From Heterotrichella gracilis (Eukaryota; Sar; Xanthophyceae; Tribonematales; Xanthonemataceae), in assembly GCA_032358255.1 (NCBI GenBank), contig JAULBX010026441.1, positions 1 to 48,258 of the forward strand: DNA of 48,258 bases. The letters run 5' to 3'. Shown here piece by piece: positions 1 to 48,258 of this stretch. Below the pieces are notes generated by a model. It had not been told where the DNA came from. It saw nothing but the letters and a program-made list of their open reading frames with translations, and did not search any database. A program made the position numbers and the translations under genes. The number at the start of each line of letters is the position of its first letter. Position 1 is the stretch's first letter.

Positions 1-3000
1 CCCCCCCACTGTCCACGAACTTCACAGAGCGCCGCCGCTTGGGCAACACACCCTCCCCTTGCCCCTGCGCCTGCGCCTGCGTTCCCCCCTGCGGCGCCAC
101 CTGTAGCGTCACCCCCTTGGTGCCGGTCAGGGCCTGGAGGGCATCCGAGTCATGCAGCAGGGTGGATACCACTGTCATGATGTCGGAGCGTAGCGCGGTA
201 GCCTGCAGACAAAAGATTCCATTAACGCCTCAGATCAGGGGTTGAGGCAAGGGGTATATAGAAAGAGAAGGTTGGGTTTTAGGGTTTTAGGGTTTCAGGG
301 TTTTTAGGGTTTTAGGGTTTCTATATACCCCTTGGTTGAGGGGTGCACGGGAGTGATACGGGTGGCATCAGCGGTTTGAGGGAAAATGCAGTGCGGATGG
401 GCACCCCGTGACCCCACGGAGGGCTGGTTAGGGTTTAGGGTTTTGCATGGGTCAGAGTCGTGCAGCAGAGTGGGTACCACAGCCATGATGCACACGGTGC
501 ATGTGTGCCGGCAGCATCAGCGCACTGAAACATGCACAAATCCATATTATCAGTCTCTCACTTTGAGTGCGGAAAGTTGATATACCGCACCACTGCAATG
601 CATATATGCGCAAACAGCCAAACTTGTGGGTTGGGGGGCAGGCGCTCAACCCTGGCAGCCCCCCGACTGCACAAAAAAATGCATGCTTTTTGCAGCCTTT
701 CTGCATTAATTTCTAAAATTTGCACATTTTATTATTTTGCATTTATTTTATTCTACGTTCACTTACGTGCGCAAACAGCCACACATGCGTGTGTGGAGGG
801 AGCACCAGCTCAACCCTGGCCGCCCCCGACTGCACCGCCTGCGTGCGCTGCTCGGGGGTGGGGGGCGGGAGCGGTGGGGGGTGGGTTGGCCCGGCGGTGC
901 TTGCGCTGAGAGTGAGGGTGGTATTGGTGTGGTGGAGGAGTGCGGAGCGGATGGCGTCGCCCGCCTCGGAGGAAATTAGGACTGAGGGGATGCCGGGGTC
1001 GGCTGCGGTGGGGGAATGGAAACTTGAGACTTCACATTACAGTCTGGAACGGGTAGTGCATGTGGGTGTGTAGAGGTAGGGGTGGGCCCTGTGTGTAGGG
1101 TGGGGTGGTGCATGTGTGAGGTGTTGGTGTGGTTGAGGAGGGCTGAGCGGGTGGCGCCCCCCGCCTCAGAGGGAATTAGGACGATGGGGATGCCGATCGG
1201 CTACGGTGGGAGAATGGGGATTAAGTGGGGTGAGGTGGCTAAGAAACGGGGGTGGCTGGGTGCGAGCGTGTGTTGAGAAGATGGTGGTGTGTGTGGTATG
1301 TATGCATGTGTGTGCGAGTGCAACAAGGGGTGTTTTATTAGAACCCGGAATTACTGGCCGCTATTAACGAGTGTGCAAGCCAGGTGGATTGACAGGATAT
1401 CAGCACAAGGTGTTGGCACCTACAAGGTAGGCGCAATGCCCCATTGCATATGTGCGTGCAGCAAATACCCTAGGTAGACCCTTAGGGTGGCCCAAATGAT
1501 GTGTGCATCGCCTACCTTGTCCGTCCCCTCCCATGGCCATCAGCTCTCCTCCCTTGGCATTGATGATCAATAGGGCTGCAGCACCCGCAGCCTCAGCGTG
1601 GCGCACCTGGGGGGCCAGGGGGTGGGAATGGTAAGGAACAAGGTTCAGGGTGGTACGTGTAAATACCCCAGCAAAATCTGCACCACTCGCAGCCTCAGCA
1701 TGACACACCTGGGGGGGTGGGGGTAGAAATGGTAAGGAATTAGGGTTTAGGGTATTGGGTGGTGCGTATATACCCCACCAGGGCTGCAGCGCCTGCCACC
1801 TCAGCATGGCGCACCTGGAGGGTGGATCGGGAGTATAATATGGGATCCTAACCAGGGCGGCTCCACAGGATTGGGGTGCGCATGTCACCACACTACATCA
1901 TACATATGTTGCCCCACATGAATCATAGCAGTTGCCTTGTTGACGTGCATCAAGGGTGATAAGATAATAATAGTCCTATCATTATCTTATTACCCTTGGG
2001 TGCATGCGTGCATGGCTTCAAACTCTACTGCCAGCACATCGAGTTGGCGCCTGGTATCCACGACCGCTAAACCCTAATGACGACCCCAATCCCCTCATGC
2101 ATGCTGTCTCACCGCTCCTATAAAGGCGCCACCACTACCTGGTGTCCATGGACCCCACACCCTACTGATGACCCCAAACCCTTGGGTTGGATGCATGCCT
2201 GCTCTCACCTTTTCTATGAATGAGCACCCCCCCCTGTCTGCCACCACCACCTGCCCCCTGGCGGAGGTGGTGAGGGGACGGCAGGCACGCAGGGGGAGCG
2301 CAAGGCTGGCGGGGCCTGGAGGGGAGGAAAGGGGAGGGGGTGGTCAGCTGGAGGGGCACGGTCGTGCGACTCTAAGCGGTGGAAAAGAAACCAGAATGTT
2401 AACGGTGTGCTGCAGAATCCTGTCGCCAGATTGTATGGCATCATGTACAACAGCGCCCTTGAAAGTGTTGCAAGCTTCCCTACCGGTGCAAAACCCTACA
2501 CCCTACACCCTACTCCCTACCTGACACGTGGCATGTCTCCTTGGAATCCTCCCCGTCATCATCGTACTCATAATCCCCCTCGCTGGCGGTTCCAGGGGGG
2601 GAGCAGCCCGCCGCCACGGTCACAGAGGGGCCAAATTCTGCAAGCAAGGGGTGGGGAGACATGTGGGTCAAAATTGGCGGGGGGCAGCTGCACTATGGAG
2701 GTGCATGAGGACGACAGTACCCTAGAGTTTTGCAAAACCCAGGCTAGGGTGCTTGCACGTCTACGCCAGGGCAAGGTTGAATTTAGACATAAGTGTCCTA
2801 TGTACATCTTACTACCCTTGGTCAGGGTTCAGCAGGGCCCAGTATTAGGGTTTGGAAGGGCACACAGGAGGAACACAACAGGACACAATGGGCCAAATAA
2901 CACCGTCCGAAATCCCCTCCCCTCTCAACGACACACACATTCCCCCCCTCACCTGCCGCTGCCCCTTGCAAGTTCTCCTGCAGGGGGGGCATATCAGCAC

Positions 3001-6000
3001 GCAGGGAGATGTCCACACCAACAAGGGGATCGGGACCTGGACAAAGGGAGGAAACACACATAGTCAGTGTCAATGGGAGAGCAACACACACGCCATCAGT
3101 GCCAAAGGAGGGAGCACAAGTAAGCACCCAGGGCAACATATCGACAGCTACGCGGCTTGGTGGCACAAGCCTCTCCAGCCCCTTTCCAACACCCGCTTCC
3201 CAGAAAAGCCCTGTCCTGTCCGCTTTCCTTCAAACAGCCCTTCCACCCCCCCCCCCCCCCCTCCCTCTTGCATGACCAGCTGCATCAGCACCCTGCATCA
3301 GCAAGGCATTGATTGCATCCCCTTGCAATTACCCAGGAAGGGCAATGCATGGGGAGAAGGGTAACCACAATCGCCCCCCCTCCAACCCCTTCCACACCAG
3401 CCACATCCCACAGAAACCCTGCGCCTACCCCCCACCCACATCCACAATCCACTCACCCTGTGTGACCAGCTGTAGCAGCACCGCATCACTGGGGAGGGCA
3501 TTGATTGCATCCCCTTGTAGCTGACCAGGGGGGATGACCTCAACATACCAGCACTTGAGGCGACCATCATCCTCAACCTGCGGCAACATTAGATGGTTTG
3601 AGATGCAGTGAATCAGAAACGTTGTTGTGTGCAGTCAGGGATTGGTTACGCGTGGGAATCACGGCCCTGAAAAATTACGGGTAGGGTACTTTTGTGCAAA
3701 TTGGACCAGCGCGCGTCTGTGTAGTGGCAGCTCACCACGGTCAAGAGTCCTGGCACACCTAATTGGACCCTGCACACCTCGAGAGTATGCACGTTTGAGC
3801 GGGTGGGGAGTGGGGAGTGAATGCCAAACACATCCCCCTTCATCCAAGGGCGTCCAATCCACCGCTGGGGACCAAGAACCACGAATGCCACCACAAACGC
3901 ATACCATACCCACCACCCCCCACCACGCACCTGCACAGCACCTGGCGCACCACCAGCTTGCCCTTCGGGTGACCCTCCATCGTTGTCCTTGACTTAACAA
4001 CAAAACCACTACCAGAACCAACATGAAGCACTACCTCAACCCCCCAACACATGCATTTCACCTGGGCAGTGCCTATCCCCAACAACCACCACCCATCCAC
4101 CACCACCCCATACGCACCATGAACCTGCACAGAACCTGGCGCACCACCAGCTTGCCCTCCGGATGGCCCTCCAGACCAGCACCACCATCCAGCGGGCACA
4201 CATCCCCACCCCCCACCGGCAGCGGGCCGATCAGGCGCTCGAGGATGGTGACATCCCCACCCCCCACCCCCCCTGCGCCCCCCCTGGGCGCGTGGACCTG
4301 CTCCGCCAATGCCTGTTTCAGCTGGGCCATTGAAGCGGTGACCAGGGCACAGGCCATGCATCGACGGTACCTGCAAGCAGGAAAGAGGTGTACATTCCAT
4401 TAATGCCATGCAACTTCCCATTGTATACAACCAGTAGTGTGTAAAAGGGTGAGGGGGAAACCAGCAAGGGGTGAAGGCTTGTTCTGTCAATGCCTGTCTC
4501 AGCTGGGTCATGGATGCCGAGACCAGGGCACAGGTCATGCATCGACGGTACCTGCAAGTGAATTTGTGTGCATCCTTGGGAATGTGCATCAAATAGGGGG
4601 AGGGGTGTACGGTGAAGGGGCACTTGCAGATGCTCAGTTCAAAGCTTACTAATCACCCTGATAATTCTCCCCTTGATGTGCAGTAGCAACCAAGAACTGG
4701 CGCAGGTGAAGCAGCGCCTCCATACCCTATCGTGAAAACCCTTTAACTCCTTGCATGTGAGCATCAAACCCTAATCCCTCACCTCATCACCTCTGCCCTG
4801 TCCACCTCCAGTGCAAGCAGCGGGAACAGCGCCCCCAAATGCCGCCGCGCCCGCTCCAATTTGGGGCGCAATGTGCCCCCCAGCACGTCATCGCACAGGG
4901 GGGCGCATTCCTCCGGAATGTGGGTCAAATAGGGGGACCGCTCCGCGCCCCGCCCCGGCAGCGCGTGTGCAAAGGGGGGTATGAAATGGCCCTCGGTGGA
5001 AAGGACGAAGAAATCCACCAGGTCTGACGCATTTGAGAAGAGCAGGTGCAGGTACTTGGTGGTTTCTGACAGGAAGAAGCTCTCCATGGTATCCTCCAGG
5101 TCGCCTGCAGGGAGGGCAAGGGTTTGATATGGGTTTGAGGGTGTGGCATGGATTTGAACAGGGTATTTGATGGAATATGCACGCCCACGTTCCCGTACCC
5201 CAAACTACAAACTCTCCCAACACTGGCTAGACCCGTCACACTCATCACGAGGTGCTTAGATGAAAAAGTTTAAAGCCGCTAAGATACCCCTGGCATCTGC
5301 TGCGACGCTCGCATACTCTCGCGGTAAACTCATCACCCCACTCAGTCCCTCCAAGTCCATTGACCACCCCTCCCAAAACCCTTCCAGCACTCACCTGTGG
5401 ACACGTCCCCCACGCTTGCGTACCCGCACTTGACCTTGTTGCGCGTCTGCAGGGTGTGGGTCAGCTCCCGACCAAGCTCAAGCAGGGAGGCGTTGCCTGC
5501 AAGGAAGGGTTTTCAAAATGCCCTAAGATAGGGTTTCTAAATGCCTTAAGATAGGGTTTGGTGTGGGTCAGCTCCTGGGCCAGTTCCAGCAGGGAGGCGA
5601 TGCCTGCAAGGAATACGATGCATGCTCACGTTCCATGCACAGACAATACCCTAGCCTAGGGCAGATGCAGATTGCCGCACATTGATGCAAACCACACCCT
5701 AGGGTACACACACAAGCATAACCACCAGTAGGCATGGGCCGTCCCTAAATACGCTCAGGGCGCAGGGGTAGCCAGTCTCCACAGGGTGGCGCTCGAGCAC
5801 GCTAACCCTAGCTTAGGGTACATGTAGTAAAGTTTACTAAATAAACGTTTTTGTTAGATATCGATGTAGTCCCTAGCACCCCACCTGTTGCTGCGTGTAA
5901 CAAGTATGTGCTCTCCATCAACTCAGGGCGCAGGGGGTAGCCGGCCTCCACCGGATGTCGCTTGAGCACTCCAATGTCAAACTGCTCAGGTATCCACCCA

Positions 6001-9000
6001 AACTGGCGCCAGGCGGCGGTCCAGTTGCCGTGGGAGGCAATGGCGTCGGGGATCTGGCCTGTGGTATGGGTGCGGGCGTGGGGGAATGTGGGCGGAGGAA
6101 AGGGGGGAGGAGGTTACCCACAAGCATGAGAAATCTGGGGGCCCACATTACCGTATATCCACACGTAGCAGGAATCACACCTGGCAGGAATTCGCAGGGT
6201 TCCGCAAAATCCTACACCCACCCAACACGCATCCTCGCCAGCACCACCACCACCACCACCACCATGACCTGCATCCCGGGCCAGAAGGCGCCCATCGACG
6301 ACACCCAGGGCTTGGCATCCTGTCAATATCTATGAGCTGTCTACCAGCCAGGAACAACCCATGACCTTTGTGCAAACACTCCACAGCCCCCTCCCCTCCT
6401 CCCCTCCACCTCATGGATTTGTGTTTTTTATTTAAGGTTTAGGGTTCACAGTTCACACGCACCGGCCATGACCTGCATCCCGGGCCAGAAGGCGCCCAGC
6501 GACGACACCCAGGGCTTGGCGATCCTGCCTGTGTCCATGTGCACATCAACCAGCCAGGAGTACCCCCGGAAGGTGGAGCGCATGCCCAGGTGCAGGCTGG
6601 CGCTGAGGTACACTTCCGTGAACATGACCAGGTAGTCCACATCGCCCAGAAGCAGGTATGCCTGTGATTGGGAGGGGAGAAGTTTGGACATGCCAAGGTG
6701 GTCGATGGGTAGCTGTGCTCCAAATGCATGCCCTTATCGATTTACACGTGAACATAGCTTCCCATACCCCACCCTCTTGCTCACCACATGTCCCCACCGC
6801 CCATCCCCTCCCACTCGCTCACCATATGTCCCCACCCCCAACCCCCGCCAATTGACCCGCAACCCCCCCCCCACCACCCACCTTCAGCAAATACTCATAG
6901 AACGAGTCTATCCCCGCGCCAATCCCCGAGTCCCTCCGCTCCCACACCAGCCGATCCACATCCAGCGTGTTCCCCAACAACCCCAGCTTGGACCGCATCT
7001 GGAACAGCATCACCACGGCATGGCGCGCAGCAGCCTCCCACGTGGCATTGCCTGTCAGCTGGCTCAGGGCGCCAAATTCAAGGAGGAGGGTCCCCGCGCA
7101 TGCGGTGCAGGTGGAGCGGGTGTCTTTGGGGATGGCGCCCTGCAGTGGCGAGGATTGGGAAATGGCTTGACTGCGCGTATAGTTTTGCAGAAGGAACACC
7201 TGGTGCATGCAGTGCATGGGAAATGGGCATAGGTGGGGATGGCGCCCTGATGGCAGGAATGATGAAAAATACATTGCCACCCCCTTTTCCTTCAGATCGA
7301 AAGTGTACATTGTCCCATGCACCACCATCCCAGCCACCACCTTCGCCGCCACCACCTCTGCCGCCACCACCACCGCCACCGCCACCAACCCCACCGTCAT
7401 CACCACCACTACCCACCGCACCTTCTTTGGGTTGATCCACGACAGCGGTATGCGGTGCGGGGTGTCAAAAGCGGGCAGCAGCCTTTCCGCAAGGTCCACC
7501 GCCAGCCTCAGCAGGCCACCGTCATAGGTCGACATGACATCGGGGCGGGAGGTGAGGAGCATGTGGGTGGAGAGGAATGAGCCTGGGGAGGGGACACAGG
7601 GATTTGATAGGTTTTGGGGGGTGGGGTGGCTGATAGTGGGGGATGTGGAAGAGTGAGGGGGTGGGGAAAGGGCCTGGTGTGGGGGTGGGAGTAGGTGCAG
7701 TATGCAGTGTCGCCAAGGGGGAAGAGTGCAGTCAAATCATCCAGTGAAAGCATGGCGAGTCCATACACAAGGTGAGGAGCATGTGGGTGGAGAGGAATGA
7801 GCCTTGGGAGGGGAAGCGGGCAGATGTTAGGGTTGGAGGTGTGGGTGGTTCCACTTGGGCGTGTGAAGAAGTGGGGGAATAGGAAAGGGCCTGGTGTGGG
7901 GGTAAAAAAGCAGGTGCAATATGCAATGTCGCCAAGGGGGAGGGAACACAGTCAATCCACCCCTCATGGGCAGGGCAGGTTCAATCACATATGCCCACAC
8001 ACGCATGTCAGATGACCGCAAGGGCTAGGGTTTTGAAGGGCAACCTAGCAGATTCGGCTCACCTAGCGCACGAATGGTGAGCTCAAACACGTGCGCCCGC
8101 ACCGACTTGTCAAATGACAGGTGGCGGGTGATGTGGGTCACCGCGTCCTGCAGCTGCTTGCGTGCATTCATAAGCTGCAAGGGGGAAATAAAGTAGTAAG
8201 GGAGGGGTGAAGGGAGGGGTGGAGCGTGAGGGAGCTCTTGGGGGGCCTGAGATGGCGTACGATCATGGCCATGAATCATACCGAGGTCACCACGGATAAG
8301 TCATAAATGTACCCGAGATGACCGCATGCAGCATAAGACAATTCATGACCCCTACCGTACGTGCACGTAGAGGAACCCGCCACAACCCCACATGGACCAC
8401 AATTGTGATTACCCCTGTACAGCACCACCACCAAATGCGCCATGCAACCCAGCATGATCACCACATGCATCATCAAAGGTGAGGCCCAGGCGTGCCATAC
8501 GCTACTGGTGGGTGGGAACCCTAGGTAGGGTTTTCTTGGGCCAAGGGCTTGTGGCACAGTGTGTCGATGCGGGTGATGACAACCCGCTAGGCTTAACTTT
8601 AGAGTTTAGGGTTTTCCACCCCACCAGTAGGGTATCCAGCGAGTCGATGAGGGTGATCGAGAACCCGCCCTGCGAGTCCTTTCCCCGGCAGCTGATTGGC
8701 CGCAGGTCATCCTACAAGGGGGGGAAGATACACGTGTGGGTAGCGAATGTGTAAAGGTACTATAGTATAATTACTCCCTGTCTGCATGTAGATAGCTGTA
8801 GGCCAACCCTACGATCGCAACCCTAAAACCCTAGCACGTCTGCTCCTCTCACCACAGAGCACCAAACACAGAACTGCATGCAGGCGTTACTACAAGGAAC
8901 ATGTCCGGCAGGATCCTTCCCTCGTCACTTCAGCTGATAACCTGTGCGCGTCATGCTGTAGCCGAATCGAACACTTGCAAACCTAAACTTCCCCGATCAC

Positions 9001-9868
9001 AACCCTACAACCGTACAGCCCTACAACCCTAGCAGATCACAGCCCTACAACCCTAGCAGATCACAGCCCTACAACCCTACAACTCTAGCAGATTACCCAC
9101 CATCGGGAAGGCATACTTCATGTAGTTGCTGTAGGCAAACAGGAACATGTCCCGCGTCTCGTTCCTGCACACAAGATGCATTTAGCACGCTGTTAGGGCG
9201 CATGATGTGTATCCATCGGCAATAATATGCGCCCTGCCTGTTCCCGTTGTGCAGGATGCCAATGAGCATTCTGTTCATGCGTAGGGGTGTCCACATGCAT
9301 GGGGGTGTTCCATACCTTATACCGTTATATAACTTCTTACAAAGGTATGTATAATCTCATGTAACCCTGTTGAACATCCCTCGTCAGGCAACATGCGTGA
9401 CATCGGCTTGGTCACCTTTCATGCAAAATGCTCCTGGAAATGGTAATTGCAATGCAGCTGTTTCACACGTGTTTTCCTGTGTTCCCCTCACCTCAGTTGC
9501 TCCATCTCCTGGGGTGTGACTGGCCCCTGGGGTAATGGTGGCGCCTGCGCATGCAAGGCGTGCTGTCAGGAACAAACATACATGTACCACTTGACCGCAA
9601 GCCATGGGAGTGGGTCCCTCCAAACCGATGTAGCGGTCAGGAACACCATGTGACTGCGAGTGAGCCAAGGTCCATCGAAACCGATGTACACCTGCCGTAC
9701 CTTGGTTGGGTTGGGGGGGGGTCGCGCGTGTGAGCCACTGGCCAACAGCACCAGCACCAGCCATGCCTGCAGTGATAGGGGTTTGTTGTTGTTGGTGAGT
9801 GACTGGTGTGTGTGGGGGGTGCGAAGAGTACGTGCAAGCCCGTACAATGCCCGACACACCAAACCCAT
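1..9868 (-). CDS. EDEM-like GH47 alpha-mannosidase-like protein with PA domain (3' end beyond window)
   Basis: Nineteen exons read in frame on the minus strand: 9868-9701 (start tentative), 9562-9492, 9164-9101, 8711-8625, 8174-8063, 7582-7422, 7139-6882, 6661-6463, 6058-5885, 5496-5395, 5104-4783, 4370-4118 (donor could be at 4136), 3577-3457, 3036-2953, 2637-2521, 2315-2209, 1606-1516, 1002-767, 202-1. At least 976 residues are visible. A hydrophobic segment (AWLVLVLLASGSHA, about residues 35-48) suggests ER entry. GH47/EDEM motifs run in order from about 80 to 510: AFPMDDLRPISC, SLDTLL, VFELTIRALG, STYDGGLLRLA, ACAGTLLLEFG, DSFYEYLLK, FWPGMQ, YPLRPELMEST, ESFFLSETTKYL and STEGH. About 720-870 is a PA domain (VVVADRGGCSFIEK, RHAEAAGAAALLI, MAMGGDG, SVLISSEAGDAI), which makes the protein EDEM3-like. 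In known EDEMs such proteins act in ER-associated degradation by trimming mannose on misfolded glycoproteins; activity here is inferred. A Gly/Pro-rich insert of about 150 residues (573-725) separates the two domains. Confidence 0.9.
266..322 (+). repeat. Interstitial telomere-like tract (TTTTAGGG/TTTAGGG)
   Basis: Five to six near-perfect TTTTAGGG or TTTAGGG units lie in the EDEM-like intron between exons 18 and 19. The longer TTTTAGGG form is the Chlamydomonas-type unit and TTTAGGG the Arabidopsis-type unit; both occur here. The tract lies between the last exon and its ghost copy at 447-492. Confidence 0.85.
447..492 (-). repeat. Ghost copy of EDEM exon 19 segment
   Basis: About 46 bp resemble positions 133-183 of the last visible exon (the stretch encoding TVVSTLLHDSDA) but with substitutions. 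It lies upstream of the exon in transcription order and is fused on one side to a TTTAGGG-type motif (429-441). Confidence 0.7.
606..672 (-). repeat. Ghost copy of the 3' edge of EDEM exon 18
   Basis: About 67 bp resemble 770-838, the 3' end of exon 18, with indels. It lies downstream of the real donor. The AT-rich stretch 703-762 separates the two copies. Confidence 0.7.
1114..1219 (-). repeat. Ghost copy of the 5' half of EDEM exon 18 with its acceptor
   Basis: About 105 bp parallel 909-1020. It still reads GIPIVLIPSEAGGATRSALL against GIPSVLISSEAGDAIRSALL in the real exon, but lacks the exon's 3' half. It lies upstream of the real acceptor. The surviving reading frame means a gene finder could take it for an exon. 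Confidence 0.8.
1581..1824 (-). repeat. Three-unit array of the EDEM exon 17 acceptor edge, period about 103-107 bp
   Basis: The real acceptor edge (1581-1645) is followed upstream, at higher coordinates, by copies at 1680-1752 and 1782-1824. All retain versions of VRHAEAAGA and a CAG acceptor. Between units lie 'ggttcaggg' or 'agggtttagggta' telomere-like words. Confidence 0.8.
1951..1998. repeat. Short imperfect inverted repeat
   Basis: Two 23-nt arms (1951-1973 and 1976-1998) pair with two mismatches around a 2-nt loop. It is AT-rich and lies in the EDEM-like intron between exons 16 and 17. No coding or splice role is evident. Confidence 0.75.
3271..3338 (-). repeat. Ghost copy of the 3' edge of EDEM exon 13
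   Basis: A decayed copy of 3461-3530 (the part encoding GDAINALPSDAVLLQLV) placed downstream of the real donor, next to a poly-C run (3246-3262). Confidence 0.75.
3921..3978 (-). repeat. Ghost copy of the 3' edge of EDEM exon 12
   Basis: A copy of about 4118-4180, still reading GHPKGKLVVRQVLCR against GHPEGKLVVRQVLCR. It has a canonical-looking donor (GTGCGT) and lies downstream of the real exon. Confidence 0.8.
4482..4612 (-). repeat. Ghost copies of EDEM exon 12 acceptor edge and an exon 11 fragment
   Basis: 4482-4558 copies the exon 12 5' edge with its acceptor (original 4303-4377; reads YRRCMTCALVSASM against YRRCMACALVTASM). 4568-4612 resembles a piece of exon 11 around 4907-4945 (weaker). 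Both lie in the intron between exons 11 and 12, each on the side expected for tandem duplication. Confidence 0.7.
5561..5614 (-). repeat. Ghost copy of EDEM exon 10 acceptor edge
   Basis: A 54-bp copy of 5454-5504 including the TTGCAG acceptor, reading ASLLELAQELTHT against ASLLELGRELTHT. It ends in degenerate CCCTATCTTAAGG repeats at 5517-5560. Confidence 0.8.
5754..5802 (-). repeat. Ghost copy of EDEM exon 9 3' portion
   Basis: A copy of 5922-5973 (encoding VLKRHPVEAGYPL) with several substitutions. It lies downstream of the real exon and ends against 'ctaaccctagcttaggg'. Confidence 0.75.
6262..6358 (-). repeat. Ghost copy of EDEM exon 8 3' part
   Basis: About 97 bp match 6467-6566 closely (one mismatch over the first 50 or so bases) before decaying. 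The copy is bounded by a (CAC)n run at 6243-6264 in place of the real donor. It lies downstream of the real exon. Confidence 0.85.
7312..7421 (+). repeat. ACC/GCC trinucleotide-rich tract
   Basis: A run of imperfect CCACCN triplets in the intron directly after EDEM exon 6. It produces long His/Pro/Thr-rich open frames that look spurious. Confidence 0.8.
7551..7962 (-). repeat. Tandem duplication (period 220 bp) carrying EDEM exon 6 acceptor edge
   Basis: Unit 7551-7740 includes the first 32 bases of exon 6, its acceptor and intron. Unit 7771-7962 repeats all of this with substitutions. The copied edge still reads SFLSTHMLLT. A smaller ghost of the exon 7 acceptor edge is at 7232-7256. Confidence 0.85.
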
Positions 9869-10010: not shown

Positions 10011-10012
10011 TA

Positions 10013-16391: not shown

Positions 16392-18239
16392 CGCTGGGCC
16401 ACTGCCAGGTCATGGTCAGGCACATGCATGGGACAAATCAGGTCGGATCATGCCAGGTTATTGTCAGGGATATGGGACAACCAGGTTGGATCAGATCAGA
16501 CATGGAGCAGGACTAGGACTGGGTTGCCAAGTTGCGATCACGATTTATATTACAGTTAGACCCACAGGGATTGCGTAGAGATGGAATGGACTTGAATGAG
16601 ATAATTTGCGAGAGCGTGGGAGAATTTCTGATCCTGTTGTGGTTCCTAGGGAGGCATGGCTTATGTTCATTCATGGTTGGTAGACCAAATAGCTTGGGTT
16701 GGATGTGGATGTAGGATTCAGCAATGGATGGTTTCAAGACTAATTTCGCGCAGGGGAGGTACAACCTCCGTGTTTTTAGGCAGTCTGATATTCCAGGTAT
16801 GTACATGGTTACCTCTTAGGACAAGATGTATTCAATATAAGTTGGATATAAGTTGGATCTGTACAATAATATTATACAATCTGCGTGCAACAGGCCACTG
16901 TGGCCTGTGTGACACTGCTGGAAGGCTTTTAAATTGCCGCAGCCTGTTAGAGTGACGAGTAGTGTACCGTCGATGTCTACAATTTTAAAGGCATCATCTC
17001 TTTTTGCGAGGTTCTTCTTTTGCTGAAATGTAGGTGCCCAAGTATCAACTGTGATTGATTGGTGTGCACCAGCTAAGATATTGCGCAATATTTGCCAGCG
17101 CATGTTTCGTTTTTGCAAACCTGAGCAACAACATTGAGTACCATGTTCCCCTTTGCCTCAATGCTGTTGCTCAGTGATGATTAGGGTCCTGGACCATTGG
17201 CACGATTGGTGACACCACCACCTCATCATCACGGACACGTTCTCTGACAGAGTGTGTCTGTTCCATATCTCAACTAACAGTGCTAGCCATTGATGCACCG
17301 GTGGGCCCATTGGAGCTCTATGGACCAGCGATGGCATCGCCTGCAGTGTCTCATTGAGCGTGCATGCATGCCGTTTGCCATCAGCCCAGTCAGATATGCT
17401 CATGTCATGTCTCAATAAGCCACTGCAGGCGGTGCCACAGTCTCATTTTGCACAATACTGTGTGCATCAAAGCATGTTATTTTACAGGGCACCCCATTTT
17501 GCTAGTATGACAGCGGATACGATGCTTGACGCTGCCACCACCGAGTTCAGTCGGGCGTCTCTTACCAAACAGCTTGGGTCGTGGTTAGCAGTGCATATGA
17601 AGCTGTTTGGTAAGAGCCAATGCCCCGATTGCACTTGATGGTGAAATTCAATACATGGGTGCTAACCTTGTCTGCCATGGCGAGCGGGGTTTGCATGCAC
17701 GCATAACAATGTCAGCATGCCATGGAGCCTGGCACTGCACTCAAGAGCTATTCAATCTGTCAAATAGCCATGATCAAGTCAGGCGTGCAGTGTTTCACTA
17801 TGGACATTGTTCCAAAGTAATCTACAAATGCCTAGCATGCCATAAGAACCCATGATGATGCAGTGTTCTACACTAAAGCTACAATGCACTACAAATACCT
17901 GTGGAGCCAAGTGTGCCACCCACTGGTCTGTGGCGACAGCAGCAGCAGCAGCGCTACTGCACGCACGCGCATCACCCACTTCATCGTCCCCAACTTGCTC
18001 CCCCTCCTCATTGGTAGGCGATGGTGTGCTGCATGCCCACGCCACCCATACCCACATGCACACTCCTCCTTGCCAGGCCGCGTCACTGATGGCCATCAGC
18101 TGCCAACATCATCCGCCCCGCCCCGTCCCACCACCCACCACTCCTGCCCTCCTCCTGGCCTTTGGCTGGCCACCACCTCCTCATAGCTCTTGCTCCGGCA
18201 GGTGGAGGGGGGAGGGTGCAACTGACATCCAAACCCACG
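16392..18239. other. No recognised gene
   Basis: This stretch follows the START-A stop codon. Minus-strand open frames at 16816-17118 and 17158-17415 have no recognisable domain. A CAG run lies at 17938-17955. The segment 17462-17600 is one copy of a dispersed repeat. Confidence 0.5.
17462..17600 (+). repeat. Dispersed repeat, copy 1
   Basis: Shares an ordered series of words (for example 'tacagggcacc', 'gctgccacca', 'agtcgggc', 'tctcttacca') with 20046-20180 in the same orientation. Similarity weakens beyond the copy ends. Confidence 0.65.
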
Positions 18240-30317: not shown

Positions 30318-30356
30318 CACCCTAAAAGCAGCAATGCAGCCCTTGAACAAGCATAC

Positions 30357-30412: not shown

Positions 30413-33400
30413 CTTGCCAGTCAAATATCACAGCTAGTAAGCACGTGCACTGCAGTTGCGCCAGCCATACCCTTGCTGAAACCCTAGCACGAGCCCACAC
30501 TTTCTCGGTCCATAGCTAGTTACACGCATTCCAGCAACACAACAAGATTGAGCGTTCAACCTTCCACATTCGGCGCCAAACAGTCCAGTCCTGCCAACGG
30601 TTACACAATTTTTAAAATTAAGTTGTTATTGTACCATATGCGGGCCCCACACCATTACCTGCACCACATTCCAGGCTACGCCGTGTGGCGTAAGGGCTCG
30701 GGGAGGCAAACTTGGAAGGAGACCTGTAAACCCTGCACACATGTATTCTATGGTTAACCACTTTGGAAATTGCTTTACCCTGAATATCTAGCCCTTACCA
30801 ATGCCCGTTGTGTAAAAATCACATGCAGGTTGAGGTTGTTGCCTAGGGTTTCAGGCAAAGGGTTTCTGACTTGCACAGCCAATGCATGCGAGCCGCCCAC
30901 CATGGGGTTCACGAGCAGGGTTCGATAACGTTTTTGTGTTTGACGGGACAACGATGCACAAACAACGTTGGGGAGGGAACGATTTTCCAAAGGGTTTCAG
31001 GAGCACACAACGGCTTCTGTGGGTGACGCTTGGCGCTCTCTGGTGCGCCCATTGGCTTCCTCCCCAAGGAGAAGTTTGATGGGTTTGGGGTGGAGTAGGC
31101 AGCTGAGGAGCTATAGTTGGGGACTTTGCAGGTGACGGGGAGGGGGAGGGCAGTGGGGCGGCCGGCTGCCATGTGCACTGAGCGTGCACTGACCTGCATG
31201 GGCGATGCGGTATGTAAACCCTAAGCTCAAACCCTACATATAAGCATGCATGCATATGGCTCGCAAACGCTCCTCACACCCTCGCCCTGGGGATGATGCA
31301 CTGTGCACCGGCACTTGGAAAGACAGAAAAGTGTGTTCCCGTCTAACCACCTTCCAAACTGGACCGAAGACTTCGCGCGACAGCGTTTATGATGCCACAA
31401 TATTTCGCGACATACGCAATTTGGCATGAATGCACAACGTATAGCAGAGCTAAATTTTGCTAGCTAGCAATGGGTCCGTCCGCAGGGGGCCTGGTTTGTT
31501 GCGAGACGCACCCAGTTTTCAAACCTTGACATGCCGTAAGATATTTCGAGACGTACCATCACCTTCGCCCCCTGAAGCTTAGCGGAAGACAGCATCGTAG
31601 CACAGCTTTAGCGAAGGGTGGTATCAGTTAGATATGTAACGTCTTAGGAGGTAGGTGATGGTACCAGGACTAGCAGCAGCTGTGCGTTCTCATGCTTCCG
31701 ATGCATGCATGCATATGGGCGTTCCGAGGCACCCTAAATGTTGTCGACAGCACTGCTACCAACGACAAATGACACAGACATTCAACCTGTTTGCCTGATA
31801 TGGATATCGATATGCAACCCGCTTGGTTCTCTGTTCCCAGGGTTAAAGATACGTCGTCTCGACCGCCCTCTGTGGTTCGCTACAGGTTTTAAAACGTTGC
31901 AGGTTTTAAAGCAACCCGTCTATCGAAGAAATAGAGGTGCTACTCTGTCAGTTGTACCACGGGAATTGACATGTCGTGCCAGCAGCGGGAGGGTCGCGGT
32001 GCATGCATGTGCATGCATGTGTGCTGCCTTGGCCATGGCTACAACTGCTGTTGCCAAAGCTCCCTACTTGCAATCGAGACTTGAGAAGCACCGTTCGTTA
32101 CCTGCCTCCCAAAACCTTGTCACTCCCTCGCTGTGTACGAAACCGCTATCACGGAACATCAAAGCAAGTTCATGCAGCACATAGCCCAGTGTCCTGGTCC
32201 ACAACGTGCCCACAGGCGCTCAGGGCCGTCACCTCTTTCTGCTGCACATCCTGCTTTTCAACGTGCTGAGAAGCCATTTTATCCATTTGAAGGCAGCCAT
32301 CGGTATGGTGGTGGCCTTGTGACCATCATCATACCATTGGCTGCCTATACCTGGGTTACATGGCTTCTCAGTCACTCGTATGAGCAGAATATGCAGGTCG
32401 AGCTAACGGCCTGAGCGTCAATTCGCCACGTGGTGAACCAGGACACTGGGTGCTGTGCCCCATGAGCCCAGGGGCCATGCCCCACTTGGCAGGTGAGCAA
32501 GGTACTGCTTGGCTTGGAGCAAGCGGCGTTGCAGCGGTGTGTCACATCCAACTTCTGGCCAAGGATAAGCCGCTGCCATGGTCACCAACATGCAGATGCA
32601 TCAAGCGACTTGGTGGCGGCACATGCTTGCGGCTTCCTGGTAACCCAGCCACCGCCACCCATCTCCCTCCCAGGCTTTTGTCAACCCTCCCAGGCTTTTG
32701 TCAACCCTCCCAGGCTTTTGTCAACCCTCCCAGGCTTGGTTTTAACGCAAGCAGGCTGGCTTGGCATTACTTTCATCAAGACTGACAGCATATGCACTGG
32801 CCTCAACGACTCCACCACTTTGAGTCACATGTGTAGCCGACCTTGAACAAAGGTGCGATTTCCACATTGAAACTGATTGCCCATTGATTCCCGCATGCAT
32901 GACCAGCACTGTCCAACCATGTGCTTGCCAACGCTTGGATTGTCCACACTCACGCAGTCGTCGTTGGTGCCACAGGCATCACCCCTGCAGGGTCACTGGG
33001 ATCTCTTCCTGCCCTGCAGCTACCATTGCACCAAGCCCTTCCCTCATCGCGCACCTTCAACTTGCTGCTGCTGGCAGCTAGATTGCTGCCTGCCAAACCC
33101 AACGCGACCTCCTAGCCACCTCCTCGTCGACCCCACCTTCGCAACCCTCTTCTGAAGGGTCAGCCCATGCAGCCTCCAGCAATTAGTCTCTGCCATTTAC
33201 CCCCAATATTGCCTTCCCGGCCTCATAGGTCGCCACACACCGCCATGGTAGTACCAGCCCCATGTATACACTATTTTGCTACCATTTCTGGCCAGACTCT
33301 GTGCCCACCTGTTACCAGCCGCTCGCGCCGCAGACTTGATCATTCCTTTTTCCACCACGGGAGGCATATTCTGACTATTTTTTTGACGAGGCTATGCTTC

Positions 33401-37400: not shown

Positions 37401-40400
37401 TGATACATGGGGTTGGGGAGTTCTGTGTGCACACCCCAGCTGTACATGGCTTATTATCATGATGCTTCTCCAATATAAAGCGCAGGCAAATAAGTCCCGC
37501 CACATTCATCGCACATATGGTTTAGGGTTTAGGGTCTGCTTGTGCCTACCTGATGGCTCGCTGGGGGAGGGCTTCGCGGGTGGGGCCCGGGGCGGGGGCT
37601 GGTGCTGGGGTGGGGAGGTGGCATCGGGGGTAGACCCCCTGGTGGAAGGCTCACGGGAGAGCGCAGGGGAGGAACCATCTGGGTTGGCCAGGGTAGTCCC
37701 CCTTGCGGTGGTGCCCCGCCCGATGGTTGCCAGGCGGTTGTTCACCTGGCGCAGCAGGTTCTCGTACATGCGGAAGGCCTCGGCGGAGATGTCGTGCTGC
37801 TGGGCGGCCTGCAAGGAGGGAAAGGTTTTTAGGGTTAAGGGTTTTAGGGTTTTAGGTTTAGGGTTTTGTACATGCGGAAGGCCTCGGCGGAGATGTCGTG
37901 CTGCTGGGCGGCATGCTGGTAGGTGTTTCATTTCAATAATTTATTGTAATAATTTATGGAAAATTGAAACATTTATTTGGAGACATACTTGTTTACTACC
38001 TTTTAATTTTTTCAATAATTTTATATTACCTTGGGCAAGGTTGCGGAATCATGAGCTGGCCAGGCAAATGCAAACATATAATTGGGGAGCAGATGTGGGG
38101 AGAGAGGAGGGCAAGGGGGGCACACGTACCGAGTTGGACCTTGCCAGGGAGGCAGCACTCGCCAGGGGGAGGGAACCACTCCCCTTGGCCTGCAGCGCCG
38201 CAGCGGCCGCGCGCATGATGTCGGAAGTCTGCGGGCTGATGGTGACGCTGGATCCCCGGGAGATGCTGGTCCCCCCGCTGGATCCCCGAGACACGTTCCC
38301 GCTGGACCCCCGGGATATGTGGGCGAAGAACTCGCGGGGATTGAAGCGGGAAACGTAGTCCACGGCGGCCGGGGCCTGGGATCCCTGGGCGGGCTGGGGC
38401 TGCGCCTGCGCGCCCCCCTTCTCGAGGTACATGTGCTCAAAGGGGGAGAGCTTGCGGGGGCCCTGCGGGGAGGGAAAAGGGGTTAGGTCAGTGAGCGACG
38501 AGGATTCTGGTTGCTGTCCTGAGATCCTCATTTATCTTTCTTTTCCTGTTGCCATGCATGTGTGGCAGGGAGGGACACTCTTGCATGCCTCACTGCGATC
38601 GGGCACCATTACAACTTGCAATTCCAGCAAAAAGAGCCAGATCAGGCCGGGAACCCGCCCTACACCCTAAACCTTAAACCCTAGGCGCACCTCCTCGGCA
38701 AAGTGCACCGACTTGCGGGCGCGGTTGAGCGCCGAATCCCCAAACTGGATCCCACCGGGACCGGCTGGGTCATCGCCCTCCGCCAGGGGAGTGATTCGGA
38801 AGGAGGGCTGGTGGAGGGACATGCGGCGCTCCACCTTGCCCTGAGGGGCCATGCTCATGATCTGGATGGGAGGGGAGGGAGAGGGCATTAGCGTGCAGTC
38901 TTGGGGCGGAATGGGGGTACAAAGTGGGGGTGGGTTGGGGGTACAACATCACAGTGAAATGTGCACCCTCAAGGACAGTAAAAATCCACAGTACCATGCA
39001 CAAGCTACTGCACTCTAAAGTATAATAACATCCCCAATACAATGCACATGTTCCGGCACCCACTCACCCCGGCCTCAATGTCCTTGGTGTTGTTGTATGT
39101 GTCTGAGCCATATCTCTGCCAGGTGTGCTTGCGGTTGTAGGCCTTATAGGCAACCACCAGGAACCACACCAGACCGATCAGCAGCAGCAGCAGCCCCCCT
39201 GCCAGCAGACCGATGTAGAGCATCTCCTTTTGCTTCTGGGATGCGGCGGCGACGGTATCCTCCCCGGTGCGCAGCTGCAGGGGGGTAAAATGGCGGGGTC
39301 AAGGTACTGTGACACACTGTAGGTTTTGAGGATTGGGTCCAGTAGAGAAAGACGGCCTCCCCCAGTCAGTAGACATTTTCATAGGGACCCCTAAACCCTA
39401 GCAAGGAGAGGGCTATCCAACCCCAACACATCAAGGCACCTTTCAAAACCCTACAAAACACCCTAGCAAGGGTATTTCCCCCCACTCACCAGGTCCTGGA
39501 GGGCATCGGCACACGACTCATAGGGCGCACAGCTGGCGGGGTTGACGTCATCAACAGGGTAGCTGCTGTTCCAAAAGCAGGTAGCCACAGCCCCCGCCCC
39601 CGCCACCGTGGGAAAGTCGATGGGCCCAATGGAGGCCTGGGTGGGGAGGCTGTGGGCGCCCCCGCGGGGGGTGATCACTCCGCTGATGAAGTAGACAATG
39701 CTGCCGCATGCGGTGGCCATGCCCGTGATCACTGCTTTCTCCTCCTTGCTGCTGAAAACCACCACCTGGAGGCGGGGGATGGGGGGGTGAGGGGCGGGGG
39801 GCGAATGAGGGGGACGTGGAGGGGGTGAGGGGTGAGTAGATGACAGCGTGTGTGGGTTACTGTGGAGTATTAGAGGTCCCGGGTCCCAGCGGCACGGTAT
39901 ATTGAGCAAATGGGGGAGGGGGTGTTGTCCCCAGCGACCAAGTACTAGGGCAAGGGTTGTAGGGTTTTGAAATTGCGCGCACCTGGCCATGGTCGTTCTC
40001 CTCAAAGCTGAGCTTGTAGCCAGACCCTAGTAGGGTTCCCACGCTGCCGTGCTGCAGCAGCTCGTTGAGGCAGTATGGCCTGGGCAGCAGGTGCAGCAGG
40101 GCAGCCCCTGCCTGTCGCTCCTGGTGCTGGGTGAGGTACACGAGGTGGGAGATGCCTGCGGGGAGGAGAATGGCAGGATATAGGGTTTAAGGTGCTAGAT
40201 TTAGGTTGCAGGGTTTGGAGTGCAAGGCTTGGAGCCTAGAGCAAGGACAGGAAAGAGACATACCCAGTGACACACAGGAACTGTGTGCAGGAACTGGCGC
40301 AAAACCCCACCCAACACCCTGACCGGCCCACCGCGCACATGGATCCAAACCGGCAAGCTGGAAACCCTAGCTCAAACCCTAGGCCAAACCCTACCCACCT

Positions 40401-43860: not shown

Positions 43861-46800
43861 TCATACAGGGGGCCTGGCTGCTGCCACCAGCACCCTATCC
43901 ATCACAGCTGTGTCCAGTAGCTGCGGCTGGTAGCTGCGCTCACAGGCTGCGCCAACCACCTCCCCGAGTAGGGCAAGCGCGTCCCCCCCACCGCCACCGC
44001 TGTACCTGCGCACGCACACACACGCAGCGGTGGAAAGGGGGTTGTTTGAGTTTTGATTTCATGTTTTTCGCCTGCGCCAACTGGCATCTTATAACCCACG
44101 TGTCAAGCACAGAAGGAGTACAGAGTACACAGCCTTGTACACCAAGTGGAGATCGTTTAGCAGCTCACTGCCCCAAAAGTGGACATAGACAAGCGGTGGG
44201 ACACGCGTGCATACATCTACCCTCTTCCAAGCAAGCAAGAACAGCTGCGGCATGCCAACACCACCGTTATCATCTCAGTCCCACCCACCTCCTCATGAGC
44301 GGCCTTAGGTAGTGCACATCCAGCTGCAGCTGCTGCAGCCCCGCGCGGTTGAGTGTGGCCAGGCGCACGCACTCCACCAGGGACTTGACGGCCAGGCGGG
44401 ATACGGCTGCGGGGTGTGGATTAGGGTTTAGGGTAAGTGGTTTGGGTGTAGGGTTTTGTGTGGTCAGGCGCACGCACTCCACACGGGACTTGGCGGCCAG
44501 GCGGGAAACGGCTGCGACGTGTGGGTTAGGGTTTAGGGTTCAGGGTCGAGGGTATGGGGGTGTGATCCAGACGCGACACAGCTGCGGGGTTTGGGTGGCG
44601 GTATGGATAGAGTTGCAGTGTGCGGGGAAGGAGGGTCGCAGTCAGGGTCAGCCCAGGGGACATCGTCAAAAAGGACTAAGGTTGGTTACATGCGTTCGCC
44701 ATATAGCAATATGACCAGTCAGCCTGTACACACGTCACCAGGCAAGCCTCTCCTGAAACTGCTGGGGAGGGCGGTATATTGTACAATAATAGTAACCCAT
44801 ACGCCGTTGCCCTGCACAAGCTCGCACCTGCCAGCACCTCCCCTGTGTTGAGCCCCGGAGCCTCACCCCCCTTCTCTTTGGCCCTGAACAGCCGAGCCAC
44901 CGATGCCTCCCAGGGACTCACCCCTCCTTCCAGCCCACCAACCCCACCACCCTCCCACCCCTCAGGCATGCTGCTGCCGCTGGGGTGGGGGCGGTGGGTG
45001 CCGGTGGTGGTGGTGGTGGTGGTTTCGGAGGGGCCGATGGAGGGTGATGGGGATGCAATTGGTCCCAGCATGAGGCTTGCCTCTGTTTCCACCTCAGCGA
45101 GGCGGTCTATGAGGAGAGTGCACACGGGGCGGGGGCCGCGGGGTTCCTGGGGAGGGGGAGGGGTAAATGGATGAGACCAAGGAGGAAAAGGGGGTGATAG
45201 TGGGAGGTGACATTGGGCGAGGAGTGCTGATGGATGCGGCGGGCTTTTCATCATTATTCTGGTATTGTGATATCAGGAAAGCAGCGGGGTGAGCGCATGG
45301 GGGAAGTGAGGTGAGAATTGGAAGTAACAAAAGGCCGGAAATGAGGTCCACCCACATCCACACCCACAGCCACAGCCACACCCACCTTGTGGTGCAGCCA
45401 GTTTGCCGACTCCATCCCCCTGCGTAACGCCACGCTTGCCCTCCTTGCGTGGAGGTCCACATAGGCAGCCACCAGAGCGGAAACGCTCCCGCCCGCCTGC
45501 CTGCATCACCACGTGGCACAACCACAGGGATCAAACATAGACCTAGGGTTAAGGGTTTACGGTTTAGGGTCAGCTCAGTCCTAGGATGCAGGGTGAACAG
45601 AAAGCAGCCATAGCAAAATCAGGCGATGGGGGACTGGCGCACACATGCACTCCCCTGGCCACTGACCTCTGCAGTTCCGCATGAATCTTTTAATGCATTT
45701 GTCCCACCTTGCCTGCCGCCAACCCCAGGCAGCTAGCGCGCTTGACCCACCCCATCACCATAACCACCATCCACCCCACCCCCCTCTCACCCCTCACCAC
45801 CCCTACCACCCACCTCTGCAACTCCGCCACGTCCAACCCCCCCTGCCTGCTGGCACGAGGCGGCATGCCCGCCAGTGCCACCCCCAGCGCCCCCGCCGCC
45901 GCCTGTACCCCCGCCCCCTGCATGTAGTGCGCCAGCTGGGCTAGCAGCAGCAGGAATGGGGGTGGGGGGGGCTGGGAGGAGGGCCATGCCGTGCTGCAGA
46001 CAAGGCGAGGGGAGGGAATCAGGCACAGTCAGGGGAGGGAATCAGGGGAGGGATCAGGGGAGGAATCAGGGGAGGGAATCAGGCACAGTCAAGGGAGGGA
46101 ATCAGGCACAGTGAATGATGCATTGGATTGACCTGCATTGCGGTACTAGGCAAGCCAACAAGAACCTACAATAATAAACGGAAAGCGAAAAAAGTTTCGG
46201 TTTTTCCAACAAGTTTCCTTTTTTCAGCAACCATTCATTTTGGTTAAGGAAGTCACACTAGCAGCATGATAGAGCAATGCACAGGCCCCTCTTTCGATCC
46301 CCCAACCCCACACCACCACCCAATGAGCCACCCGCTCACCTGCCTCCTGACGCGCCCACAGCAGCAGTACCTCCCACCGCCACCCCACCAGCTGCCCTGC
46401 AGGTGTCCAGCATGTGCGCCATTGCAGCCGCCACCTGTCCCTCAACCAGGTCAGCATACACCTCCCCCCACCCCGCCAGCAGCCAAGGCTTCGATCGGTA
46501 CACCTGGAGAGTGGTTGCGGGGAGGACAGTGTATGAAAACCACACCATGCTAATTTTGTCACTTTCTGTTTCTGAATGGAATGGAAGGGACAACCAACTT
46601 TAATATTACGGTGGATAGGATACACAAACTAAGCTGCGTGCAGGCAAGTGCAGAGCGCTTGAAAGGGGGAGGTTGGCGACTACTGATGATGAAGGCAGAA
46701 CATGACGAACCCCCCAATACTTCCAATTCATGTTCTCCCTCCCCAACCCACCTTGAAATCCGCCAGCAACCCCGCCAAGCCCCCCGACACCAGCCCCTGC

Positions 46801-48089
46801 AGCGCCCCCAGCGCTGCCCCCGCCATGTCGCACTGCGCCGCCCCCCGCTGGGCAGGGTCCCCCCCCACCTCCTCCATGGCACCCCTCACACCAGCCAGGG
46901 AGGCAGCCAGGCGGCTGCCCACGGCTGCGCATGCGCAGGTCACGTGCTGGCGCACGGTGCTCTCGATGACCTCGGTCCCCCTACATGCAAAATAGGTACG
47001 GTTTGTATTGGTAATTACTGACTTCACGGTGCACAGGTGCATGGCTGCTGCACGCAAGGTAGATGGGAGGTGAGGGTGGTGTGTGTGTGTGGGGGGGGTG
47101 ATGTCAATCATAGTGCATGTATGCCAAAGAAGAAGACACGAGGTAATTGATCACCTCCATGATACTTGTCAGAAAGAAACCCAACCTTGGCAAACTTGGG
47201 GATTGGTAGGACAAGAAAAAACCCTTGTAATCCCCCCCTCACCTTTACTATGCACTAGTCTGTATCCCCCCACCATACACCCCAAACTCTACCTGTCCTT
47301 GGGCTGAAGCTCCGGCAGCACCCCCTGCACTCTATTCAGATCCGTGGCAGCCACATACAGCGCCTCAGCCACCAACCCCGCCCCCCAGGCGGGCGAGGGG
47401 GGGTCACATGGGGCGGTGCCGGGTGCCAGCTCACCGCCAGGTGTCAGCCCAGCAGCGCGCGCCACCTGGACTGCTGCAGCATCCGCCACCGCTCTCCGCA
47501 GGATCTTGACATAGCGCGAAAACACCTCACGCATGGCCTGTGGGTGTGGGTATGGGGGTTTCAGGAGCAGGTAGCAGGGGTTGGGGATGCGTTGGCTAGC
47601 CAGGTGGCAAAGTGGGCGGGTTGACGCAGGGTGCGAGCCCAGCAATGAACACCGCCGTGCATCACCCAAACCCATCAACCACTTCCTGCCCCTCCCCCCT
47701 CCACACAATTTGATCAGCTTCTGCCTCCCTTGCGCCGAAAACACAGCTCCGCCAATAGCGCCACTGCATTGGCTAGCTTACTGAGGAACCTGCTGCTACG
47801 TAATACCCCCACCTTGATTGATACACCCACCCACCCACCATCGGCGTCACATCACCCAATCCCACACACAGTCTCTTGCTCACCCTGCATTTCTTAGCTG
47901 TGAACCCACCTACCTTGATCAGTTTCTGCCTCCCCTGTGCGCCAAAAAGCTCCGCCCACAGCGCCGCAGCCTTGGCCAGTTCACTGAGGAACCTGCCGTT
48001 GAGTGCGGCCAGGAGGGGTGCTAGGGGCAGGGGGGAGCCCTCGGGGGTGAGGCCCCAGGAGGGGAGGCTGGAGGGGTCGGAGATGTCGT
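43861..48089 (-). CDS. VPS51: VPS51 subunit of GARP/EARP tethering complex, C-terminal part (5' end beyond window)
   Basis: Nine exons: 48089-47914, 47537-47293, 46980-46752, 46503-46340, 45993-45814, 45500-45386, 45146-44828, 44406-44289, 44005-43861 (TGA). They are in frame throughout and give 562 residues of C-terminal VPS51. Diagnostic features: QPPPPPFLLLLAQL, then VSALVAAYVDLHARRASVAL and NWLHHK followed by EPRGPRPV (matching the conserved 'W...EPR.VR' region), LNRAGLQQLQLDVHYLRPLM (the conserved QQ.Q.D..YLR signature) and the terminal LLGEVVGAACERS. Family role: tethers endosome-derived vesicles at the trans-Golgi network with VPS52-54. A Thr/Gly-rich insert (TTTTTTT) in exon 45146-44828 looks lineage-specific. 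The exon before 48089 must lie to the right of the window or in its last 170 bp, where no in-phase exon was found. Confidence 0.85.
44455..44600 (-). repeat. Two ghost copies of VPS51 penultimate exon acceptor edge
   Basis: 44455-44530 copies 44345-44425, still reading VSRLAAKSRVECVRLTT against VSRLAVKSLVECVRLAT and keeping a CAG acceptor. A shorter trace is at 44566-44600. TTTAGGG motifs lie at 44425-44436 and 44528-44538, between the units. Confidence 0.85.
45541..45572 (+). repeat. Telomere-like tract in VPS51 intron
   Basis: Degenerate TTAGGGTTAAGGGTTTAC units directly upstream (in transcription order) of exon 45500-45386. Confidence 0.7.
46008..46115 (+). repeat. Minisatellite, GGGAGGGAATCAGG-type units
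   Basis: Six to seven imperfect units (14-25 bp, some with 'cacagtca' extension) in the VPS51 intron immediately upstream of the exon starting at 45993. Confidence 0.85.
47707..47793 (-). repeat. Ghost copy of VPS51 first visible exon, donor side
   Basis: Copies 47914-48000 (GRQKLIK edge) with substitutions, downstream of the real donor. Confidence 0.8.
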
Positions 48090-48183
48090 CTGCGGGTGGG
48101 GGGTGAGGGGCTAAATTGTGAGTGGCATTGCCTGCCAGAATGATATGTTGGCATTTCACCATGACAATGTATGATCGAACAAT

Positions 48184-48206
48184 ATAGTTAGTTAGTTAGT
48201 TAGTTA
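48184..48206 (+). repeat. (TTAG)n microsatellite
   Basis: About five TTAG units, followed by 'attccagcaaaa.agccaga', a word also seen at 38618-38642 and in partial form near 30535. Confidence 0.8.
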
Positions 48207-48258
48207 CATGCATTCCAGCAAAATAGCCAGATTAGCAGTCAGTCTTGCACATGCGGCG

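Follow-up and report, generated by a model that had tools for sequence, protein, structure and literature searches.

In a 48,258-bp stretch of DNA from the xanthophycean alga Heterotrichella gracilis (JAULBX010026441.1, which is contig C393 in a 903-contig assembly totalling 68,512,230 bases; the whole stretch is called the window below), introns hold diverged same-strand copies, or ghosts, of the edges of adjacent exons, and such local copies are confirmed as real and recurrent in a sample of the genome. In about half of the copy pairs the duplication is tied to telomere repeats (TTTAGGG) at the joint between the two copies. We consider it likely that introns grow by these duplications, and we give a probability of about 0.65 to the fuller reading that a form of break repair duplicates a local segment, X, often leaving telomere repeats at the joint; the product would have the structure X-(TTTAGGG)n-X, or sometimes X-tel-X-tel-X. 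A preliminary description of the window had proposed head-to-tail duplication across exon–intron junctions, acting repeatedly as a process of intron growth. Such duplication is supported and recurs in the sampled loci, and repeated growth fits the data; simple tandem duplication, however, does not describe the joint, whose enrichment in the telomere repeat that description had missed.

Local copies and the telomere repeat at their joints

Self-BLAST of the window gave 34 same-strand matches within 5 kb, 32 of them at an offset of at most 500 bp, and no inverted match within 5 kb besides overlapping palindromes (when palindromes are allowed, five lie within 600 bp). The survey of copy pairs extended over 268,258 bases, comprising the window and those 22 of 25 sampled 10-kb loci with a GC content of at least 0.45 (23 loci). 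At offsets of 50–250 bp we found 113 raw same-strand matches and no inverted one, the inverted matches being placed within 50 bp (10), at 250–600 bp (1) or further out (9). Some raw matches are redundant or lie within long arrays, as in two 126-bp arrays of locus L017. Removal of redundant and overlapping matches, the latter including 29 array matches that were set aside, left 91 pairs in 15 of the 23 loci, with an offset of 67–243 bp in 81 of them. The window contributes 25 of these non-redundant, non-overlapping pairs, besides five overlapping array matches, so that the preliminary estimate of about 30 ghosts was a fair one, and the excess of same-strand local copies for which a self-alignment had been proposed is present in both the window and the sampled loci. 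Misassembly of haplotypes or paralogues, a danger raised by the same description, is unlikely and finds no support, because the copies differ by 5–30% and their differences track codon position.

The spacers between the copies are rich in the telomere motif. In the window and the first 20 loci, without the low-GC ones, 8.3% of spacer bases lie in TTTAGGG-type heptamers, against 1.4% elsewhere and 4–5% in the copies themselves; Markov shuffles of the window give 0.39%. A telomere motif is touched by 48 of the 91 spacers, whereas random placement in the same loci gave a mean of 19 and a maximum of 30 in 500 runs. When up to 40 bp inside each joint was compared with an equal length outside, the motif was found only on the inner side in 35 pairs, only on the outer side in 1 and on both in 8. 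By type, 45 spacers exceed 10 bp and hold a whole motif, 4 measure at most 10 bp, 9 are AT-rich and the remaining 33 belong to no such class. Motif-bearing spacers make up 12 of 25 in the window and 6 of 11 in its EDEM-type gene (described below), where the motif occupies 126 of the 1,255 bases in spacers against 179 of 5,219 other intron bases, in both orientations (28 G-sense and 62 C-sense), and where no telomere heptamer occurs in 2,690 exon bases. The AT-rich spacers without the motif include 673–767 of the window, 6107–6189 of L016 and 537–596 of L019. The first two were searched against the assembly and each matched only itself, and an organelle or dispersed origin of these fillers was rejected on these two of the nine.

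The sequence TTTAGGGTTTAGGG occurs 2,845 + 2,784 = 5,629 times in the assembly, against 2 + 3 = 5 for its reversed control. Five-unit arrays lie at most 8 bases from the start of contigs C70, C140, C526, C609, C717, C770 and C824 and from the end of C173 and C660, and about 140 bases from a contig end on C46, from which we take TTTAGGG to be the chromosome-end repeat. As candidates for the main repeat, three units of TTTTAGGG (9 matches) and of CTTAGGG (1 match) were rejected. A telomerase RNA-binding domain (PF12009) is encoded on C626. Loci L001, L006 and L010, on contigs C1, C100 and C180, have a GC content of 33–38%, against 50–60% in the other 22 sampled loci, and no TTTAGGGTTTAGGG is listed on C1; given these observations, a second organism is probably present in the assembly alongside the alga.

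A further sample took the repeat as its starting point and consisted of internal tracts chosen without regard to duplication (17 of at least five units, 20 of four and 20 of two). A direct duplication anchored on each flank at no more than 6 bp from the tract, with a score of at least 18, was found at 18 of the 57 tracts (6/17, 8/20 and 4/20 by class), against 2 of 400 mismatched flank pairs; at a score of at least 24 the figures are 16 of 57 and 0 of 400. Read by eye, locus L027 has an identical 19-bp X on both sides of its tract, L032 a 64-bp X at 95% and L081 an X of about 83 bp, while in L083, L077, L076 and L068 a donor-like exon edge is repeated downstream with CCCTAAA linkers. The exon of L077 resembles the second beta-propeller of RSE1/DDB1 (E 3.1e-06; 27.1 bits, under the cut-off of 30), and Pfam searches of ten such open reading frames (ORFs) gave nothing beyond this match and a weak one in L037; a presumed resemblance of L083 to a kinase glycine loop found no support there.

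The tracts themselves are informative about how they may have arisen. In those read, the copies are separated by telomere units alone, with no shared dispersed sequence, and the tracts start in several registers (by eye). Over 19 sites the X beside these young tracts ranges from about 15 to 88 bp, a length that is not near-constant, unlike what is expected of the target duplication of a mobile element. In L042 the two copies enclose a G-strand tract that runs into a C-strand one, which would fit extension of both ends. At the extended end, at least one base in register with the repeat is found in 11 of the 19 duplicated tracts (chance about a quarter), and at least three in 4, a count without its own control. 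At the rejoining end, at least three bases are common with the repeat in 9 of 19, likewise uncontrolled and mostly where the flank is itself telomeric; L032 (AGGGT) gives the cleanest such match.

Exon edges, ghosts and splice sites in the window

The EDEM-type (GH47) gene occupies positions 1–9164 on the minus strand and was delimited by Pfam, tblastn, splice landmarks and its open frame. Its 17 exons run from exon 1 (9164–9101) to exon 17 (from 202 to the window end), and the spliced product is one open frame of 896 codons, with a best database match in Chlorella variabilis (55% identity). Exons 1–9 are backed by tblastn with homologues and by GH47 Pfam matches, exons 10–17 by splice-like ends, the open frame and a PA-domain match below its cut-off. 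Exon ends were placed by hand, the 5' end of the gene being undefined and the 3' end lying beyond the window.

In each of the 11 non-redundant pairs of this gene, one copy lies within an exon or crosses its boundary, and its partner sits in the intron on the side of the nearer exon edge, with 9 of the 16 introns carrying a copy; five pairs span an exon edge and six lie inside the exon, at most 37 bp from it. Both the same-strand intronic copies of adjacent exon edges reported in the preliminary description and the arrangement it gave them, with acceptor-edge copies upstream and donor-edge copies downstream, are in their core borne out. Direction alone is weak evidence, since an intronic copy of an exon edge is on the intron side by definition, and the informative parts of the geometry are the strand, the short distance and which exon end is copied. 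On the acceptor side, exon 4 (7550–7722) has a ghost at 7770–7941, at an offset of 220 bp and 79% alike, and exon 10 (4299–4377) one at 4480–4558, both with spacers lacking the telomere heptamer. For exon 8 (5453–5506; ghost 5560–5613) the spacer at 5507–5559 consists largely of telomere-like units, exon 15 (1572–1614) has two ghosts (1674–1716 and 1780–1822) with the telomere motif between, and the motif is also found in the spacer of exon 17 (144–182; ghost 452–490). The acceptor-side ghost of exon 16 (920–1019; ghost 1120–1217) carries a frame-breaking net indel. On the donor side, spacers with the telomere motif separate the copies of exon 6 (6466–6559; ghost 6262–6353), exon 7 (5922–5969; ghost 5754–5800) and exon 11 (3463–3517; ghost 3273–3325), the spacer of exon 10 (4100–4173; ghost 3910–3979) lacks the heptamer, and that of exon 16 (768–835; ghost 607–672) is AT-rich.

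Divergence was analysed in 12 comparisons, the 11 pairs and the second ghost of exon 15, so that one exon copy was used twice. Mismatches at codon positions 1, 2 and 3 number 20/217, 13/215 and 44/213, with 37/235 in the intronic part, and in 5 of the 12 ghosts the net indel breaks the frame. This is the pattern expected if a ghost is free to drift while the exon copy next to it is held at positions 1 and 2, and by their sequence the ghosts look like dead copies, drifting as unconstrained DNA does. We do not claim exon edges as targets, because the pairs that touch exons partly reflect detection, one copy being conserved, and partly survival. The exon-edge geometry would then be largely that of random short duplications after selection against exon-breaking ones, plus easier detection.

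The telomere motif lies preferentially near donors in this gene, where the first 40 nucleotides of introns hold 10 of the 28 motif clusters, spread over 10 of the 16 introns (2.4 expected; none of 5,000 runs reached 10), and the last 40 hold three. By eye, the young tracts of L067, L068, L074, L076, L077, L078 and L083 start 6–15 nucleotides past an apparent donor. Over all sampled tracts the signal is modest, with a donor-like motif matched nine times in the 30 bp upstream of C-sense tracts (about 3.9 per kb, compared with 0–1.6 further out) and, less clearly, five times in the 30 bp upstream of G-sense tracts (about 2.1 per kb, compared with 0–1.9), and acceptor-like motifs show no clear pattern around these tracts. 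The donor-side clustering may reflect a hot spot or survival.

Other genes of the window carry similar copies. In a VPS51-like gene on the minus strand, an acceptor-side pair at 44347–44434 and 44452–44539 is 89% alike, with telomere units ending both copies, and a donor-side pair at 47710–47793 and 47915–47996 is 81% alike; a stitched query for this gene matched one protein, an unnamed Trebouxia protein, at 32% identity over 49%. This match and the one of the EDEM-type gene in Chlorella variabilis both point towards the trebouxiophyte green algae. A pair at 37756–37812 and 37860–37916, on the minus strand as judged by eye from ORFs, is 93% alike, and its spacer at 37813–37859 is made largely of telomere-like units. 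Pfam gave no match for four ORFs of the region that had been named START and three of that named FAS1, and the names START A and B, FAX and FAS1 are provisional.

Other repeats depart from these pairs in distance or form. Same-strand copies at 18593–18675 and 19314–19396, in the region named START, are 81% alike and 721 bp apart, beyond the usual offset, and those at 17456–17568 and 20042–20142 are 75% alike and, at 2,586 bp apart, far beyond it. A perfect 20-bp tandem repeat at 32665–32737 (3.7 copies, 100% identical) looks younger than the exon-edge copies. In L017 the two arrays, at 3204–4628 and 7414–8323, have units of about 126 bp that are 70–75% alike and contain no telomere motif; the unit length, a multiple of three, perhaps indicates a repeated protein.

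A proposed repair origin and its alternatives

We propose that a staggered break or a pair of nicks would produce two 3' ends, both containing X, and that one or both of these would be extended with telomere repeats, probably by telomerase, before being filled in and rejoined, in some cases at telomere-like microhomology. Telomerase appears the simplest source of the tracts, judging by their shortness, their several registers and the in-register bases. Events within exons would be lost and the survivors would be found in introns, whereas an event across an exon–intron junction would leave one splice site working and push the spare copy into the intron, giving rise to ghosts and decoy sites.

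Several observations weigh against this proposal. No bracketing duplication was detected at threshold in 39 of the 57 tracts, which implies that insertions leaving no detectable duplication are at least as frequent as those that do. In 43 of the 91 pairs the spacer lacks a telomere heptamer, nine of them having AT-rich filler, and some of the pairs must therefore be due to plain duplication or to decay. With an unanchored flank test, 11 of 37 tracts exceeded the 99% point of mismatched pairs, but so did 121 of 1,000 points taken at random from the sampled loci; we rely on the anchored test because the unanchored one fires often at random points in a genome so rich in copies. The young X is shorter than most of the old exon-edge units, a mismatch that the proposal does not account for, although the BLAST search for old pairs is blind to short X units. 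The counts of in-register bases at tract ends carry no control of their own, and over the 91 pairs there is no clear polarity of the kind in which G-strand motifs would lie nearer the first copy and C-strand motifs nearer the second, the head-to-head tract of L042 being the only direct sign of it. Finally, insertion itself is deduced from the sequence of one assembly.

The alternatives differ mainly in the part that they give to telomere DNA. Plain short tandem duplication by staggered-break fill-in or slippage, with motifs reaching the introns in some other way, would suit the 43 pairs without the motif and the four spacers of at most 10 bp, and fill-in of 3' overhangs by CST-Pol alpha is described as making such duplications in mouse and human cells (PMC8355091). 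We nevertheless regard it as unlikely, since the motif sits inside the joint and seldom outside it (35 to 1) and X abuts the tracts on both sides; for motif-bearing pairs it was already disfavoured. The same inner and outer counts (35/1/8 of 91) led us to reject unequal exchange between motifs flanking X as a general cause, although such exchange may have enlarged arrays later, and they disfavour fork stalling at a tract with backward template switching, which predicts a tract after the second copy, although a motif of a single unit is present at one outer end in L039 and in L041. Closer to our proposal is a form of end joining in which the filler comes from existing telomeric fragments or telomere circles, with no telomerase at the break. 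The tracts are short, and the nine AT-rich spacers show that other fillers occur, which makes capture plausible, but the two of these that were tested have no second copy in the assembly, and the in-register bases (11 of 19, uncontrolled as noted) together with the head-to-head tract of L042 fit 3'-end extension better, so that we hold capture to be rather improbable.

Explanations that invoke an element or a function fare worse. A mobile element, introner-like or of the telomerase-related Penelope type, with telomere-like sequence of its own and a long target duplication at each insertion, could account for a target duplicated on both sides and for the many genes affected. It is nonetheless very improbable and was already disfavoured, given that telomere units alone lie between the copies in the tracts read, that X varies in length, that tracts begin in several registers and that the two longer fillers tested are single-copy. 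We consider it hardly credible that selection maintains the ghosts as alternative exons or as regulatory decoy splice sites. Acceptor-side ghosts of the EDEM-type gene do retain a pyrimidine tract and AG (by eye), but the differences by codon position fit one constrained and one free copy and 5 of 12 ghosts have frame-breaking net indels, a combination on which we reject alternative exons.

Relation to known systems and significance

Telomere repeats inserted at double-strand breaks, sometimes with target duplication, are known as interstitial telomeric sequences in primates, rodents and the horse (PMC2246262, PMC7215372). They resemble the present tracts in being short stretches of the chromosome-end repeat, read as break-repair insertions involving telomerase, with some target duplications; the in-register bases at the break described there may have a counterpart in the uncontrolled counts given above. 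In H. gracilis, too, the genome's own chromosome-end repeat is found both in contig-end arrays and in internal tracts genome-wide, and part of the loci show target duplication (18/57 against 2/400). Duplication is tabulated in these reports for 6 of 130 loci in rodents, 4 of 25 in primates and 3 of 66 in the horse, compared with 18 of 57 tracts here, and at most a few hundred loci per genome are mentioned (mouse, rat, human, chimpanzee), compared with thousands of tracts in 68 Mb; in contrast, the alga also has arrays and exon edges in introns. In Arabidopsis and rice, where telomere motifs (telo boxes) are scattered in genes, telomerase has been proposed to add the motif to free 3' ends at transcription-linked breaks (PMC3022908). 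Telo boxes, however, are mostly single units enriched in 5' untranslated regions and promoters, not in introns, and duplicated flanks are not described in the accessible part of that report (PMC3022908).

Small tandem duplications at 3' overhangs that need CST-Pol alpha in mouse and human cells (PMC8355091) are likewise local, head-to-tail and overhang-sized, and are made by a telomere-linked complex (CST-Pol alpha-primase). The local same-strand duplication of overhang size that this type would lead one to expect is present here (113 matches against 0 inverted at 50–250 bp). Those duplications, in contrast, arose at laboratory breaks, and the main text of the report lacks the word telomerase and, in its accessible part, describes no telomeric insert (PMC8355091). 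Tandem duplication can also make an intron, since copying across an intron–exon boundary gives spare splice signals, but that report describes a single case that yielded a new intron (PMC4974935), whereas here it is existing introns that seem to lengthen repeatedly. Direct repeats of short length have also been described at the borders of introns (PMC11782384), and introners (PMC9860276) likewise change gene structure at many sites of one genome, although as dispersed copies of one element and not of a local exon edge. Our search of the open-access literature, which left most subscription papers and bioRxiv preprints outside, found no paper on telomere-linked duplications filling introns. The insertion of telomeric repeats at breaks is already known in mammals; its density, duplication rate and role in introns look new here.

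A more far-reaching version, which we offer tentatively and hold to be possible but doubtful, is that telomerase acts as a standing genome-wide mutator, extending 3' ends at breaks or nicks clustered just inside 5' splice sites, and that X-telomere-X insertions are the main source of intron length. An insertion in an exon whose X carries AG|GT could then be spliced out at once as a new intron, with the C-rich strand of its tract furnishing CTAA(A/C), which resembles a branch point, and a run rich in pyrimidines.

The lengthening of introns and the origin of new ones are old questions, for which few mechanisms have been caught in the act. The repair route proposed here seems to leave a telomere label at the joint and a host copy on both sides, and since label and flanking copies are readable, sequence data alone would suffice to detect, date and count its events. 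Telomere maintenance, on this view, may be able to remodel genes, and this alga is an organism in which such telomere-linked remodelling can be tested.

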